Assembly: GCF_023806465.1 (NCBI RefSeq)
Contig: NZ_JAMSLS010000003.1
Span: 124,001 to 188,000, forward strand
From: Thermomicrobium sp. CFH 73360
GTDB taxonomy: Bacteria > Chloroflexota > Chloroflexia > Thermomicrobiales > Thermomicrobiaceae
Length of the DNA: 64,000 bases
Direction of reading: 5' to 3'
Made by a program: the position numbers and the translations under genes. The notes under the pieces are model-generated. The model worked only from the letters and a program-made list of their open reading frames with translations, did not search any database and was not told where the DNA came from. Of this stretch, positions 28,528 to 34,691 are shown in pieces (the stretch's first letter is position 1; every line of letters starts with the position of its first letter).

Positions 28528-30000
28528 ATGTCGGCTGGTGCGGTCCGTCGCTACCGGAATTACATTGGCGGTGAGTGGGTTGAGCCAAGCAGCGGTGAGT
28601 ATCGCCCAGATATTGACCCAGCCGATTCGCGAGTGGTGCTTGGTGAGTTCCCGCGTTCCACCACGGCTGACGTCGATCGTGCCGTCCAGGCCGCAGCGGC
28701 TGCCTTCCCGACCTGGAGCCGTCTCTCTGGCCCCCAGCGTGCCGCAATCTTGCACAAAGCAGCCAATATCTTGGAGGCGCGTGCACAGGAGATCGGCGAA
28801 GCCCTCACTCGCGAGGAGGGGAAGACCATTAGCGAAGGTGTCGGCGAAGTCCTGCGCGGCGTCGCCATCCTTCGCTACTTCGCTGGCGAGCCACTCCGAG
28901 CTCTCGGTGAGGTCTACTCGGCCACGAATCCTGACACTTTCCTCTATACCGAGCGCGTTCCGCTCGGAGTCGTCGGTGTGATCACTCCCTGGAATTTTCC
29001 TGTCGCCATTCCACTGTGGAAGCTTGCCCCTTGCCTCGCCTTTGGGAATACCGCCGTCTTCAAGCCAGCTGAACTCACGCCGCTGACTGCTCACCTCATC
29101 GTCGAAGTCTTCATCGAGGCTGGATTACCGCCTGGCGTGCTCAACCTCGTCCACGGCCCCGGCTCGGTCGTCGGCGAGGCGATCGCCCGGCACCCCAAGG
29201 TGAACGCGATCACCTTCACCGGCTCGAACGCGGTTGGTCGACACCTCTATCAGATCGCCAGTGAGCGCGGTGCCAAGGTACAGCTGGAGCTCGGCGGCAA
29301 AAATCCGGTCATCGTCGCCGAGGATGCTGACCTCGACTTCGCTGTAGAGCTGACGACGTCGGGCGCTTTCCGGTCGACCGGTCAGAAATGTACTGCGACC
29401 TCGCGTGTGATTGTGCTCGAGCCCCTACTGCGTGACTTCACCCAGAAGCTGGTCGAGCGCGCTCGGTCACTGAAGGTTGGCCCCGGCATCGATCCCACGG
29501 TCTACATGGGGCCGCTAGTTTCAGAGGAGCAGCGCCAGCGTGTGCTCGGGTACATCGAGATTGGCGAGCAGGAAGGCGCTCGATTGCTCACCGGCGGCCA
29601 CGAGCTCGCCGAGGGTGACCTACGCTACGGCTATTTCGTGGCTCCCACGGTCTTCGCCGATGTCGAACCAGGAATGCGCATCGCCCAGGAGGAAATTTTC
29701 GGCCCCGTCGTCGGAATCATCCGGGCTCGCAGTCTCGACGAGGCGATCGAGATCGCCAATGGCGTCCCCTATGGTCTCTCCGCCTCTCTCGTGACGCGTG
29801 ATATCCGCAGAGCCTTCCAGTTCGCCCGAGCGATTCAGGCAGGCGTCGTCCATATCAACTCGGAAACGGCTGGTGCCGAGCCACACGTCCCCTTCGGGGG
29901 TATGAAGGCCTCAAGTTCCTACTCACGTGAGCAAGGGCGGGCCGCGCAGGAATTTTTCACGCAGACCAAGACGGTGTACTTTGACCTTCCACCCGCCTGA
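28528..30000 (+). CDS. Aldehyde dehydrogenase, probable 2,5-dioxovalerate (KGSA) type
   Basis: A 490-residue NAD(P)-dependent aldehyde dehydrogenase. Asn156 (PWNF), Glu254 (LELGGKNP) and catalytic Cys288 ([11 protein letters not shown]) are present. The stretch [16 protein letters not shown] and the late [17 protein letters not shown] are typical of alpha-ketoglutaric semialdehyde dehydrogenases that finish non-phosphorylating sugar-acid routes (arabinose, xylose or glucarate), rather than of betaine aldehyde dehydrogenases. No other genes of such a route are in the window, so the substrate is an inference from motif resemblance. A strong terminator follows. Confidence 0.88.
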
Positions 30001-30031: not shown

Positions 30032-30069
30032 CATCCCGTCCCGCATGCGAAACGGGACGGGATGCTTTG
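30032..30069 (+). terminator. Strong terminator after the aldehyde dehydrogenase gene
   Basis: CATCCCGTCCCG (30032-30043) and CGGGACGGGATG (30053-30064) form a perfect 12-bp stem with a 9-base loop, followed by CTTTGT. It lies 31 bases after the stop and isolates the next gene. Confidence 0.82.
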
Positions 30070-30147: not shown

Positions 30148-32322
30148 ATGTGCTCCGCGTACACGCTCGCAGCCTCGCAGACGTTCTTGAATTCCTTCAC
30201 CGTCCTCTCACGCGCAAATCAAGAACGCCTCATCCGGAAGCTCCCGGAACTCCGCGCTGATCCCCATCCCGATGGGACAGATCACAAGCGACGTCTCGAG
30301 AAGTACCACGACGTGTACCGTCTGCGGGTTGGCGATTATCGCGTCTTCTACCGCATTCGGAACGATTGCGTTGTTGTCCTCCTCGGTGTCGAGCACCGGA
30401 AAGATGCCTACCGGCAGGAGTCACTCACCTTTGACGATCCTCCAACCCTGATCATCGAACCGGATCCGGCAGATTCACTTCCCTCCGCAACTGGACAGAA
30501 CGAGCCCCTCACCTCGTTCGACCAAGGCTCACCCGAGATCTCTTCCACGCGCCCACTTGCCCGACTGCTGACTGAACCAGACCTCGCGCGCCTCAACGTG
30601 CCCCGCGAGCGATGGCCTGCACTCCTGTCTTGCCAGACCGAGGAGCAACTGCTGGAACTCCTGCAAACGTTCCCTCCCAGCTTGGCCGAACGACTGATCG
30701 ATCTCGCCTGTGGCAAGACACTCGACGACACACTGGACGACCCGGTCTATGTGCTAAAGTCAGAGCTATCCCTGCTTGATCTTTTGCAAGGTGACGCTCC
30801 GCTCCAGTATCTCCTCGACCAGAGCCAGGAAAAGGCGCTCGAGCGTATCCGCTCCAACCCGGGCCCGTACCTCATCACTGGAGCTCCTGGTACCGGGAAG
30901 ACAGTCCTTGCACTCCTCGCCGTCTCGGTCCTACGAGAACGTGCTCAAGCGAGCGGGAATGAAGACCCACGCGTGCTCTTCGTTACCTATACTCGCGCGC
31001 TCGCCCAGACATTGACGCGTCTCGCCGAGCGCCACCCTCCACTCGCCGATCGCCTCTCGCTCACCGTGGACACGCTCGACCGACTCGTCGCTGACCTGAC
31101 ACCGGACGTCGAGATGGCCCGCGATGAGCAAGTCCGCATCTTGCTCCAGCAAGCCCGATCCCGTGCCTTCGAGCGCCCGCTCTCTCCGGATCCGCGGCGT
31201 GACCGAGCGCTCGCTTCCTCTATTCAGCGTATCAAGGACCTCTATCTCCGCACAGAAATTGAGGAAGTGATTCTCGGCCGCGGGCTCGCTTCCCTCGAAG
31301 ACTATCTGAAGGCTGATCGCACCGGACGACAGGTCGGGTTGAATGCGAACCAACGTGAAGCGATCCGGCGTGTCTACGAAGCGCTCAGTGACCTGCTCCG
31401 TGAGCAAGACCTTTACCTCCGCGAGGAGCGCCGGCAGCTCGCATTGGATATCCTGCGCCAGAACCCGGACCATCAACGGTACGATGCTGTCATTGTTGAT
31501 GAAGTCCATGACCTGAGTCTGGTCGCGTTGCGTCTTGTGCGGGAGCTCTGCCGTGATCCGGGTGCTCTCGTTTTTGTCGGTGATGTCGGCCAGTCCGTCT
31601 ACCTCCGCGGATTTCGCTGGGAACTCCTGCGCGACGAGTTGCCCAACTGCCAACAGATCTCCCTCTCAACGAATCAACGGTCAACCCCAGAAATTTTCGC
31701 CGCAGCCCAGGTCTACCTCCAGGCTATTCCGATGCGTGGCACAGCTGACCATCATCCACCTCTCGACCACCGCAAGCAGGCCGCACGGAGGCAGCCGTTA
31801 GTTGTCCTTCTCCCCGTATGGGATGCTTGGGGTCAGGCCCTCCCAAAGGTGCTTGACGAACAGCTCGCCGCGCTGCGACTCACACCAGGCCATGCTGCGA
31901 TTCTTGTCCCGACGAACGACCTTGCGCAAGAGGTTGCTTCTGCCCTCGGTACCGCTGGGTTCCCCAGCGAGGTTGTCGCACGAGGACAATCGCTCTCTAC
32001 CAACCCCTCCGTCAAAGTCTTGACCTGGCACAACGCCAAAGGCCTGGAGTTTCCGCTCGTTGTTGTCTTGATGCCTGATTGGCAGCCGCCGCCAGTTGGC
32101 TGGTCTGACATTGAGACTGATGAGCTTCGCGAAGTCGTGGCCCTCTGGCGCCGCACTGCCTACGTCGCTATGACGCGTGCGATCCGTGCACTTGTGGTGC
32201 TCCGACCGGCTGAAGGAACGAGCCCGCTCCTGCCCGGGTTTGAGGCGCCGGAATGGCAGAAGACCACGTGGGAAAACGGTGCCGCTACGAGTGATCCAGC
32301 GGCGCCGGTGTTGGCGTCCTAA
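30148..32322 (+). CDS. RelE/ParE-like toxin domain fused to UvrD-type SF1 helicase
   Basis: A 724-residue two-part protein. Residues 1-90 look like a RelE/ParE mRNA-interferase fold: a helical pair (ASQTFLNSFTVLSRANQERL, KLPELRADP), then RLEKYHDVYRLRVGDYRVFY and a final VVLLGVEHRKDAYR, keeping the Arg and Tyr residues used by RelE-type nucleases. After a disordered linker (about 95-137) and a small helical segment (138-190), a full SF1 helicase core follows: Q-motif-like LDQSQEKA, Walker A GAPGTGKT (245-252), motif Ia FVTYTRALAQTL, motif II IVDEVHD (451-455), motif III FVGDVGQSVY, motif IV STNQRSTPEI, motif V TWHNAKGLEFPLV and motif VI YVAMTRAI. It stands alone with no antitoxin gene beside it. 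Related RelE-helicase fusions exist in databases, but their job is not established; a defence or RNA/DNA repair role is inference. Confidence 0.85.
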   Translation: MCSAYTLAASQTFLNSFTVLSRANQERLIRKLPELRADPHPDGTDHKRRLEKYHDVYRLRVGDYRVFYRIRNDCVVVLLGVEHRKDAYRQESLTFDDPPTLIIEPDPADSLPSATGQNEPLTSFDQGSPEISSTRPLARLLTEPDLARLNVPRERWPALLSCQTEEQLLELLQTFPPSLAERLIDLACGKTLDDTLDDPVYVLKSELSLLDLLQGDAPLQYLLDQSQEKALERIRSNPGPYLITGAPGTGKTVLALLAVSVLRERAQASGNEDPRVLFVTYTRALAQTLTRLAERHPPLADRLSLTVDTLDRLVADLTPDVEMARDEQVRILLQQARSRAFERPLSPDPRRDRALASSIQRIKDLYLRTEIEEVILGRGLASLEDYLKADRTGRQVGLNANQREAIRRVYEALSDLLREQDLYLREERRQLALDILRQNPDHQRYDAVIVDEVHDLSLVALRLVRELCRDPGALVFVGDVGQSVYLRGFRWELLRDELPNCQQISLSTNQRSTPEIFAAAQVYLQAIPMRGTADHHPPLDHRKQAARRQPLVVLLPVWDAWGQALPKVLDEQLAALRLTPGHAAILVPTNDLAQEVASALGTAGFPSEVVARGQSLSTNPSVKVLTWHNAKGLEFPLVVVLMPDWQPPPVGWSDIETDELREVVALWRRTAYVAMTRAIRALVVLRPAEGTSPLLPGFEAPEWQKTTWENGAATSDPAAPVLAS

Positions 32323-32341: not shown

Positions 32342-32369
32342 CACCGAGTCCACCCAAAGGGGCTCGGTG
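32342..32369. terminator. Hairpin between converging helicase and esterase genes
   Basis: CACCGAG (32342-32348) pairs with CTCGGTG (32363-32369) around a 14-base loop, between the helicase stop and the esterase stop. No T run is seen on either strand; a bidirectional terminator role is suggested by its position. Confidence 0.4.
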
Positions 32370-32373
32370 CGGC

Positions 32374-33270
32374 TTACACCGCTGCCCAAACGTGCTGCCG
32401 CAAGAACTGCGCGATCGTCCGCAGTGACTCCTGTGCTTCTGGGCGTTCCAAGCTCAATTGCCAGACATGCCACATCCCAGGGTAGATCGCCAGCTCCACT
32501 GGAACACCTGCTGCCCGGGCCGCGGTTGCCAGCCGCTCGGCATCGTCCCGCAGCAGTTCCTCGCCGCCGGCGTGAATCACCAATGGTGGAAGTCCGCGGA
32601 GGTCCCCGTACACCGGAGAGATGAGTGGGTGACGCGGATCTTGGCCCTTCACGTAGGCCTCATGAAACAGTGTCACGACTTCTGGCCGGAGCCACCTATC
32701 ACGCCCCCTCCGGCTACGCTCCGCTGAATCAGCAAGATCGACAACTGGGGAGAGACACGCTGCTGCGGCGGGCAGCGGAGAACCGGCGTCGCGCAGGCGT
32801 AGCAGTGTCGCGAGTGTCAAATTGCCGCCGGCAGAATCTCCCGCTATGGTGATGCGGTGTGCTCCCCAACCGGCCGCAAGCAATGTTCGGTACACCAGTG
32901 TCACATCGTCCAGCGCTGCCGGAAATGGGTGTTCGGGCGCAAGTCGATAATCGATAAGCAGTACACGCGCTGCACAAAGATGCCCCAAGGTCGCAGCGAG
33001 CCCAACATGCAAGGCCGTCCGCCCAAGAACAAAGCCGCCACCATGGAGATACACGAGCACCCAGGAAGAATCGGCTTGATCGGGGATTAACCATTCGCAG
33101 CGGATACCCCCGACATGCCAGACCTCGCGCCGAGTTCCGGGAGGTAATCGGCTAATCCGCCGAGCTCGTTCAATCATGGAGCGTGCCTCTGGCAGCGAAA
33201 GTTCTGTGCCCAGGAGTTCGGTAATAGAACGAGGCCTTCGTGGAACAGTCAGCGAGGTATTACCCGTCAT
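32374..33270 (-). CDS. Alpha/beta hydrolase, HSL family esterase (paralogue 1)
   Basis: A 298-residue carboxylesterase/lipase-like enzyme of the hormone-sensitive-lipase family. The oxyanion motif HGGG is at residues 76-79, nucleophile Ser146 in GDSAGGN, the acidic region near GGEELLRDDAE, and the catalytic His in PGMWHVWQ. The start at 33270 has AGGAGGGCC upstream. The protein is cytoplasmic (no signal peptide) and likely hydrolyses short acyl esters; natural substrates are unknown. It is clearly related to the gene at 33765-34691, sharing IDYRLAPEHP/VDYRLAPRHP, QDPRHPLISP/HDPRHPLISP and the same C-terminal end pattern. Confidence 0.91.
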   Translation of the reverse strand: MTGNTSLTVPRRPRSITELLGTELSLPEARSMIERARRISRLPPGTRREVWHVGGIRCEWLIPDQADSSWVLVYLHGGGFVLGRTALHVGLAATLGHLCAARVLLIDYRLAPEHPFPAALDDVTLVYRTLLAAGWGAHRITIAGDSAGGNLTLATLLRLRDAGSPLPAAAACLSPVVDLADSAERSRRGRDRWLRPEVVTLFHEAYVKGQDPRHPLISPVYGDLRGLPPLVIHAGGEELLRDDAERLATAARAAGVPVELAIYPGMWHVWQLSLERPEAQESLRTIAQFLRQHVWAAV

Positions 33271-33764
33271 CGCGGCCCTCCTCTCACTCGAGGTCCCGGC
33301 ATGAGTCTGCACGACAGGCAGTATGAAATCGTGACAGTGGTGTGACACTGTCTGTGTGCACAGCTGCAGGGCTGCCTGAGTGATCAGCAGGCACAAGAAG
33401 AGCGATCACTCCCAATTCGCGGAAATGAGACAAAATATTTTCCGGCTCATGATATGGTATACTCTCGTGGAGACTGTTGCCCGTAGAACCGCTTTCGCTG
33501 CATGCTCTCCGCGTTGGAGCGGCAATGGTGAGGCGGCACGTCCGTCCCGATGTGTCTACGGTTGAGCGAGCTTTGTTGGCCTCGGCCTGGAGACGAGGCC
33601 ACCTCACGAGCTTAGCTGTCTGAGCGCGCAGGGTTGCACCCACGATCACCCTGCTTCATCACGAGGGGCACCGCATACTCAGGCATCGTCCGCGGTGATC
33701 TCTCGCCGCGTATTCGCCCAGACAAACCTGGCAGCGCAGTCGAACGTTGCCTCTGGGGCGGACG
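33271..33764. other. Intergenic region between the esterase paralogues
   Basis: About 490 bp. It contains an AT-rich patch near 33430-33463 with an extended -10-like TGGTATACT at 33455-33463 on the + strand, although no rightward gene follows. The promoter of the first esterase should lie near its left end. No gene-like frame is present. Confidence 0.45.
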
Positions 33765-34691
33765 TCAGCCTGTATGGTCGGTCGGCACTGTCCTCTGCTC
33801 GTTCGCGCTGTTCAGTTGCTCCACAAGCCAGCGGGCGATCGCGTGTAGCGACTCCTGTGCCTGCGGGAGCTCAACGTTGAGCTGCCAGACATGCCACATC
33901 CGGGGGAAAATCGCGAGTTCGACTTCCACCCCTGCTGCCCGCGCGGCTGCCGCGATTCGCTCGGCATCTTCCCGCAGAAGTTCTTCCTCACCAGCATGGA
34001 TGAGGAGCGGCGGCAGCCCATGCCAGTCTCCATACAGCGGCGAGATCAACGGATGGCGTGGGTCGTGGTCAGCAATGTACGACCGGTTGAACCGTCGGAT
34101 CGCCCGCGGATGCAACACCGCATCACCGGCCACCCGGCCCTCCTGGTTGCGCGGTGTCAGGTCGCCTACCGGAGACAGGCAAGCAAGAGCGGCGGGGAGC
34201 GGGATTCTGGCATCGCGGAGCGCCATCACCATCGTGATCGCAAGGTTTCCACCCGCTGAGTCTCCAGCCACCACAATGTGCTGCGGTGCAAGTCCTTGCT
34301 CAAGGAGCCAGCGATACACTGCCAGGCAGTCTTCCAGCGCGGCTGGCCATGGATGACGCGGAGCCAGCCGGTAATCAACGAGGAGAGTCCGGAGCTCGGA
34401 TCGTCGCGCGAGTTCCGCAACCATGCGAAGATGCTGCCCGCTTAACCCGAACACAAATCCCCCACCGTGGAGATACAGCAACATTCGATCGTTTCGGCTC
34501 CCCTCAGGGACGAGCCAAACACAACGGAGACTGTCAATGCGAAGGTCCTCTCGCTTGATGTCAGGAGGGAGGATGACGCGCCGCGTGCTCTGCTCGATGA
34601 GCCAGTTGGCAATCCCAAGCGGTAAGTATGCCGAGAGAAGCCGGGCAATGCGTAGCTGCCCCCGGATCTGACCTTCAGGTGCGCTGGCCAT
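33765..34691 (-). CDS. Alpha/beta hydrolase, HSL family esterase (paralogue 2)
   Basis: A 308-residue HSL-family esterase. HGGG is at residues 75-78, Ser145 in AGDSAGGN, the acidic site in HAGEEELLREDAE, and His in PRMWHVWQLN. ATG 34691 follows GGAAGGAGAGAGG. Compared with paralogue 1 it has a longer N-terminal cap region (residues 1-45), which in this family shapes the substrate pocket. The two genes run in the same direction but are 494 bp apart, so they are probably not one transcript. A local duplication followed by divergence is the simplest reading. Confidence 0.91.
   Translation of the reverse strand: MASAPEGQIRGQLRIARLLSAYLPLGIANWLIEQSTRRVILPPDIKREDLRIDSLRCVWLVPEGSRNDRMLLYLHGGGFVFGLSGQHLRMVAELARRSELRTLLVDYRLAPRHPWPAALEDCLAVYRWLLEQGLAPQHIVVAGDSAGGNLAITMVMALRDARIPLPAALACLSPVGDLTPRNQEGRVAGDAVLHPRAIRRFNRSYIADHDPRHPLISPLYGDWHGLPPLLIHAGEEELLREDAERIAAAARAAGVEVELAIFPRMWHVWQLNVELPQAQESLHAIARWLVEQLNSANEQRTVPTDHTG

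Follow-up and report, generated by a model that had tools for sequence, protein, structure and literature searches.

A RelE-like domain fused to an SF1 helicase in Thermomicrobium: a possible orphan relative of the anti-phage helicase ArmD

In this study, we describe a solitary gene of Thermomicrobium sp. CFH 73360, located on the forward strand at 30148..32322 of a 64,000-nucleotide stretch of genomic DNA (referred to below, at its full length, as the window), which encodes a 724-amino-acid fusion of a RelE-like domain with an SF1 helicase. Our preferred reading, put forward tentatively and with somewhat less than even confidence, is that this gene is an orphan member of the ArmD-like anti-phage helicase family, with an RNase domain controlled in cis. 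Several lines of evidence favour it: RelE matches in Pfam and PDB, with kept R65, R84 and Y88 and low dN/dS of the N-terminal domain; placement of members of the same clade inside DISARM, ARMADA-like and BREX operons; full-length homology to ArmD, which is required for phage defence together with its K266 (PMC12458937); and lack of an antitoxin-like conserved ORF. The same reading is weakened by the window copy having no defence neighbours, by the genome lacking DrmA and by the breakage of several solitary orthologues. It also counts against it that RelE normally needs the ribosome.

Results

Gene and domain architecture

An ORF artefact was ruled out, as the gene is present exactly at 30148-32322 (+), gives Pfam matches and has full-length relatives. 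Residues 1-92 (30148..30423, +) form the N-domain of the RelE/ParE superfamily, assigned by Pfam ParE_toxin and PDB RelE profile matches and by dN/dS. A conserved helical linker domain at about residues 137-200 (30556..30747, +) is marked by conserved L137, L146, T164, E165, L168 and P176 and is also recognisable in the alignment with ArmD; a linker domain had been predicted at residues 138-190, so that the domain itself stands and only its extent had to be corrected.

The UvrD/GajB-like SF1 helicase core occupies about residues 220-690 (30805..32217, +) and is supported by Pfam, NCBIfam and PADLOC matches, with UvrD-helicase, AAA_19 and UvrD_C each above the Pfam cut-off within residues 226-684. 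As predicted for residues 220-690, the SF1 motif set is complete, and in the alignment of relatives it is mostly invariant. Its N-terminal part comprises Q227, the family-invariant Walker A GAPGTGKT at residues 245-252 (30880..30903, +; K251), FVTYTRAL at 278-285 and, placed by family alignment, the Walker B/motif II DEVHD at 451-455 (31498..31512, +), which reads DEAQD in nearly all relatives; the C-terminal part comprises GDVGQSVY at 478-485, NQRST at 509-513, LTWHNAKGLEFP at 625-636 and RRTAYVAMTRA at 668-678. An ordinary PcrA/UvrD helicase was ruled out, the top NCBIfam match reaching 62 bits where 965 are required.

The N-terminal domain and its active site

Residues 25-88 matched Pfam ParE_toxin with 34.6 bits (E 3e-8), passing the curated gathering cut-off of 23 bits for the RelE/ParE toxin superfamily. 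A profile built from 19 N-domains matched PDB structures of archaeal, E. coli and M. tuberculosis RelE, as well as of YoeB, with the best E of 9e-12. For the active site, RelE counterparts were taken from the profile/PDB alignment and residues were counted over 57 window-type N-domains. The RelE-type catalytic set R61/R81/Y87 is matched by R65 (30340..30342, +; R in 57/57), R84 (30397..30399, +; R in 57/57) and Y88 (30409..30411, +; Y in 54/57, F in 3/57), while R58 (30319..30321, +) aligns with K52 and is R in 56/57 relatives, and R60 (30325..30327, +) aligns with K54 and is R in 50/57. In RelE, R61, R81 and Y87 are important for mRNA cleavage and K52/K54 less so (Neubauer et al., PMC2807027). 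The predicted RelE-type N-domain with nuclease-type residues was thus borne out at the sequence level, and judging by these residues the window N-domain may be an RNase.

The N-domain is under strong purifying selection. Among seven orthologue pairs, its dN/dS lay at 0.065-0.14 in six and at 0.29 in the remaining one (0.13 for the window protein against that of Bacterium HR28), and in most of the seven pairs it was no higher than that of the helicase. Such selection argues against a dead relic, and with the kept catalytic positions it rules out a degenerate N-domain.

The superfamily and catalytic positions are common to the N-domain and the RelE/YoeB mRNA interferases of type II toxin-antitoxin systems, whereas the window protein is fused to a helicase and has no antitoxin gene.

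Flanks of the gene

The upstream neighbour encodes an aldehyde dehydrogenase (28528..30000, +) and the convergent downstream one an alpha/beta hydrolase (32374..33396, -), both non-defence by Pfam; in all, Pfam identified around the gene an MFS transporter, an AI-2E transporter, the aldehyde dehydrogenase, two alpha/beta hydrolases and a GDP-mannose dehydratase. The hydrolase genes at 32374-33396 and 33765-34691 (-) are adjacent, of the Abhydrolase_3 type and on the same strand, probably as a result of tandem duplication. Between the aldehyde dehydrogenase gene and the fusion gene lies a perfect 12-bp hairpin with a loop of 9 and a weak T-tract (30032..30064, +), at which the terminator scan made no call; the hairpin of the original prediction is real, and calling it a strong terminator was an overstatement. 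The predicted downstream hairpin is present as well, as a 10-bp stem at 32342..32369 between the fusion gene and the convergent hydrolase gene, and it lacks a T-tract.

No small ORF conserved beside the solitary copies was found, close pairs apart, in agreement with the predicted absence of an antitoxin gene. A hidden antitoxin ORF was ruled out, because the matches either belong to pairs of close relatives or overlap with adjoining genes, and the adjacent antitoxin gene by which type II toxin-antitoxin systems are recognised was not found at the window locus.

The search for known defence partners was likewise negative: the flanks of the window gene gave no ArmA, ArmB or ArmC matches, its neighbours included no GajA-type nuclease (Pfam), and DrmA was not found in the window genome. 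The DruE profile does match that genome, but also 12 of 14 controls, including E. coli and B. subtilis, and was rejected as a non-diagnostic defence marker. Two DruE-like helicases of 1693 aa with identical scores and equal frames, at G000:C2:40366-45108 and G000:C35:120564-125306, look as if a stretch were duplicated in the window genome.

Relationship to ArmD and Gabija

Bell et al. (2025 preprint, PMC12458937) described ArmD of type II ARMADA, in which a GajB-like helicase is preceded by a RelE-like N-domain. Deletion of ArmD or its K266A substitution abolishes ARMADA defence in E. coli, all four genes of the system are needed, and ARMADA acts without killing or metabolic shutdown, the cells surviving (PMC12458937). 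In the ArmD encoded by the ARMADA operon of an E. coli plasmid (L156), K266 and D454 stand exactly at the substitution positions of Bell et al., and therefore we regard it as the same protein type as theirs. Homology between the window protein and ArmD extends over residues 7-695 (24.8% identity, E 1e-27), K251 being the aligned counterpart of K266; common to both are the RelE-like N-domain, a similar linker, the GajB/UvrD-like SF1 helicase and a length of about 700 aa.

In the maximum-likelihood tree, the window clade (Chloroflexota, Pseudanabaena, Deinococcus NW-56) is set apart, with support 100/99, from the ArmD-like clade, represented in the tree by ArmD-like plasmid copies next to ArmC. 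The window protein therefore does not group with ArmD orthologues, and while ArmD follows armA-armB-armC, the window gene stands alone, outside any armA-armB-armC-armD operon. The two also differ in the active site. The canonical RelE R/R/Y is present in the window protein; ArmD-like proteins carry H at the R84 position, within HDxAYxWA, and have lost the lysines, the R65 and Y88 positions being kept.

This difference bears on another explanation, in which the RelE-like domain is not a nuclease and serves as a nucleic-acid or ribosome docking module steering the helicase, its conserved residues binding RNA or DNA phosphate. Since the ArmD clade has this H and no lysines, ARMADA does not depend on the precise RelE set; moreover, ARMADA is non-abortive, and the ArmD substitutions in the main text of the preprint hit the helicase only, a test of the RelE domain not being described there (PMC12458937). 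On the other hand, the window clade keeps R65, R84 and Y88 almost without exception, and the RelE R81 position is the one at which RNase Sa2/T1 has its general-acid His (PMC2807027), so that proteins of the ArmD clade may be active RNases of a different kind. From the residues alone, both clades could be RNases of different chemistry, and a purely docking role appears doubtful to us.

As regards GajB of Gabija, likeness is limited to the UvrD-like helicase core. GajB gives the top PADLOC matches (80.9 bits), but they span the helicase only and leave residues 1-220 of the window protein outside, and no Gabija gene adjoins the window gene.

Operon context of relatives

Neighbours of the relatives were checked over a span of about 9 kb with PADLOC profiles and with tblastn using identified genes. 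In about 18 Chloroflexota loci, the window-clade gene lies between drmMI and drmA of DISARM, with drmD and drmB in most of them. The order drmD or drmMI, fusion gene, drmA, drmB was read directly in nine of the best loci, and in several the stop of the fusion gene overlaps or abuts the start of drmA. Class 1 DISARM (drmD, drmMI, drmA, drmB, drmC) is thus a host of window-clade members, although the fusion is not among the genes DrmA-D and DrmMI of the profile library used, and the window genome has no DrmA. Judged by counting, with no formal test and with loci of close relatives non-independent, the occurrence of the gene inside a single kind of operon across many genera goes far beyond what chance would give.

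Seven further loci are ARMADA-like, with a YprA helicase and a methylase beside the window-clade gene, and those read far enough also contained a DrmD/ArmA-like helicase. PADLOC had labelled this neighbour class Druantia-like; we re-read it as ARMADA-like because of the DrmD/ArmA-like helicase and methylase upstream, and because YprA proteins of ARMADA are similar to DruE (PMC12458937), with E. coli ArmC itself scoring as DruE in PADLOC. In one type 1 BREX operon of Deinococcus, the window-clade gene is located between brxC and pglX.

Two side observations concern these surroundings. GmrSD-N proteins (type IV restriction) recur beside the RelE-helicase in ARMADA-like and DISARM loci (L076:6856-8892, L079:3205-5283, L081:1996-4086, L097:7294-9390). 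In the operon at L071:5877-11136, the gene of a window-type RelE-helicase overlaps those of a PD-(D/E)XK nuclease and a UvrD helicase; DISARM or ARMADA genes were not found near this locus.

The anti-phage link of the original prediction is thereby supported, through relatives inside DISARM, ARMADA-like and BREX operons and through the related ArmD being needed for phage defence (PMC12458937). Clustering with defence genes holds for only part of the loci, as about half of those examined have no DISARM, ARMADA-like or BREX genes within roughly 9 kb; these include the window, other Thermomicrobia and Chloroflexus, with ordinary neighbours. The idea of a self-contained device is conjectural, many relatives belonging to multi-gene systems and only some being solitary.

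Distribution and decay

Among the named records found, the nearest is Bacterium HR28 (93% protein identity), which was the one relative given by a scan of genome contigs, whole-genome searches supplying the others; the copy of T. roseum DSM 5159 is 56% identical to the window protein. Within the class, 41 of the 158 genomes carry a full-length or nearly full-length fusion, at E values up to 1e-20, and a phylum-wide profile search gave matches in 72 of 400 genomes, some of them helicase-only. Among the plasmid records searched, the fusion is also present on plasmids of Pseudanabaena and Deinococcus, with ParE_toxin above cut-off. The Pseudanabaena plasmid copy is 46% identical over its full length to a Chloroflexus-type copy, and in a protein of 805 aa from a Pseudanabaena galeata plasmid (L050:5995-8412) the stretch that joins the RelE domain to the helicase is longer by ~90 residues. 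More distant helicases carry RelE-like N-domains of a third type, which match weakly.

In viral contigs and phages, matches were confined to the helicase part or to stand-alone RelE, which leaves a phage origin of the fusion unsupported. Gordonia phage JuJu (L058:2504-3006) and related phages carry a free-standing RelE-RelB pair by a serine integrase, the toxin being 33% identical to the N-domain.

In Chloroflexus the gene is near-universal and occupies one conserved chromosomal locus in at least six species, which is the sole housekeeping-like pattern that we observed; several Thermomicrobiaceae have window-type copies at a syntenic locus. Such synteny and the ordinary neighbour genes would be expected if the solitary gene of Thermomicrobia and Chloroflexus had been domesticated as a chromosomal maintenance helicase (for R-loops, stalled transcription or repair) and had lost its defence role. 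We find this unlikely, as presence within Thermomicrobiaceae is patchy and decaying (genus g5 lacks the gene and several members are pseudogenised), the share of class genomes given above is unlike that of a core gene, and the nearest relatives with informative context stand among defence genes. The original prediction had named as contrary outcomes an N-domain unlike RelE and a housekeeping helicase with a dead N-domain; the domain is RelE-like at the sequence-profile level and keeps its catalytic positions, and neither outcome was observed.

Lesions take several forms. The T. roseum orthologue (L059, plasmid NC_011961.1, about 468-471) has a frameshift near residue 40, inside the RelE domain, with the helicase frame fully open; the gene carries the annotation AAA family ATPase, and this record is a complete plasmid. 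The G008 orthologue combines a frameshift near residue 54, inside the N-domain, with a stop at 132, stops occur at 591 in G002 and at 708 in G018, and the G004 copy has several lesions; draft assemblies may be behind some of these. Breakage of several solitary orthologues indicates that the gene is dispensable, as defence genes are. Together with the absence of partner genes, the frameshifts and stops might also mean that the solitary copies have been left over from DISARM- or ARMADA-type operons, with partners lost and decay under way. This seems quite improbable, given that the window and HR28 copies are both intact, with dN/dS of 0.13-0.37 per domain, and that helicase motifs and catalytic positions are all intact despite divergence down to about 50% identity.

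Discussion

Under the preferred reading of an orphan ArmD-like helicase with an RNase controlled in cis, the SF1 motor would load on the single-stranded nucleic acid that an invading replicon exposes in intermediates of replication or transcription. Through substrate binding and movement driven by ATP, it would then free the N-terminal RelE-type RNase domain or bring it into position, and this domain would cut RNA on site, be it transcripts, R-loop RNA or primers. The linker and the helicase would tether and restrain the RNase in cis, and an antitoxin would consequently not be needed; the original proposal, in which the helicase or linker restrains the toxicity, is plausible. In many related loci the protein would be one component of a larger system with a YprA helicase or methylase (DISARM, ARMADA-like, BREX), whereas in Thermomicrobia the gene stands alone. 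We infer the RNase activity, the cis-control, RNA as the target and continued defence by the solitary copy.

Published data on ARMADA, namely the need for four genes and for the Walker A of ArmD and the survival of cells, support the motor part of this proposal and call for caution with the notion of a plain suicide toxin; an mRNA interferase that acts freely fits poorly with a system that acts without killing or metabolic shutdown (PMC12458937). A bolder version is a single-gene, antitoxin-free immune device, in which the RelE-type RNase is carried and cis-controlled by its own SF1 motor, requires no YprA helicase or methylase partner, and represents a module recruited separately by DISARM, ARMADA and BREX. 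We consider this rather unlikely, though conceivable.

Conclusions

The RelE-helicase architecture is already known from ArmD. Going by the open literature, in which a published report of the fusion gene in DISARM was not found, the novelty lies in a clade of its own that has the canonical RelE active site, its DISARM slot between drmMI and drmA, its BREX placement and its solitary form. The window clade offers natural single-gene versions for testing what a toxin-type RNase does when it is attached to a defence helicase, and it is equally suited for testing how such an RNase is restrained without an antitoxin. If the preferred reading is true, DISARM of Chloroflexota would have a further component.
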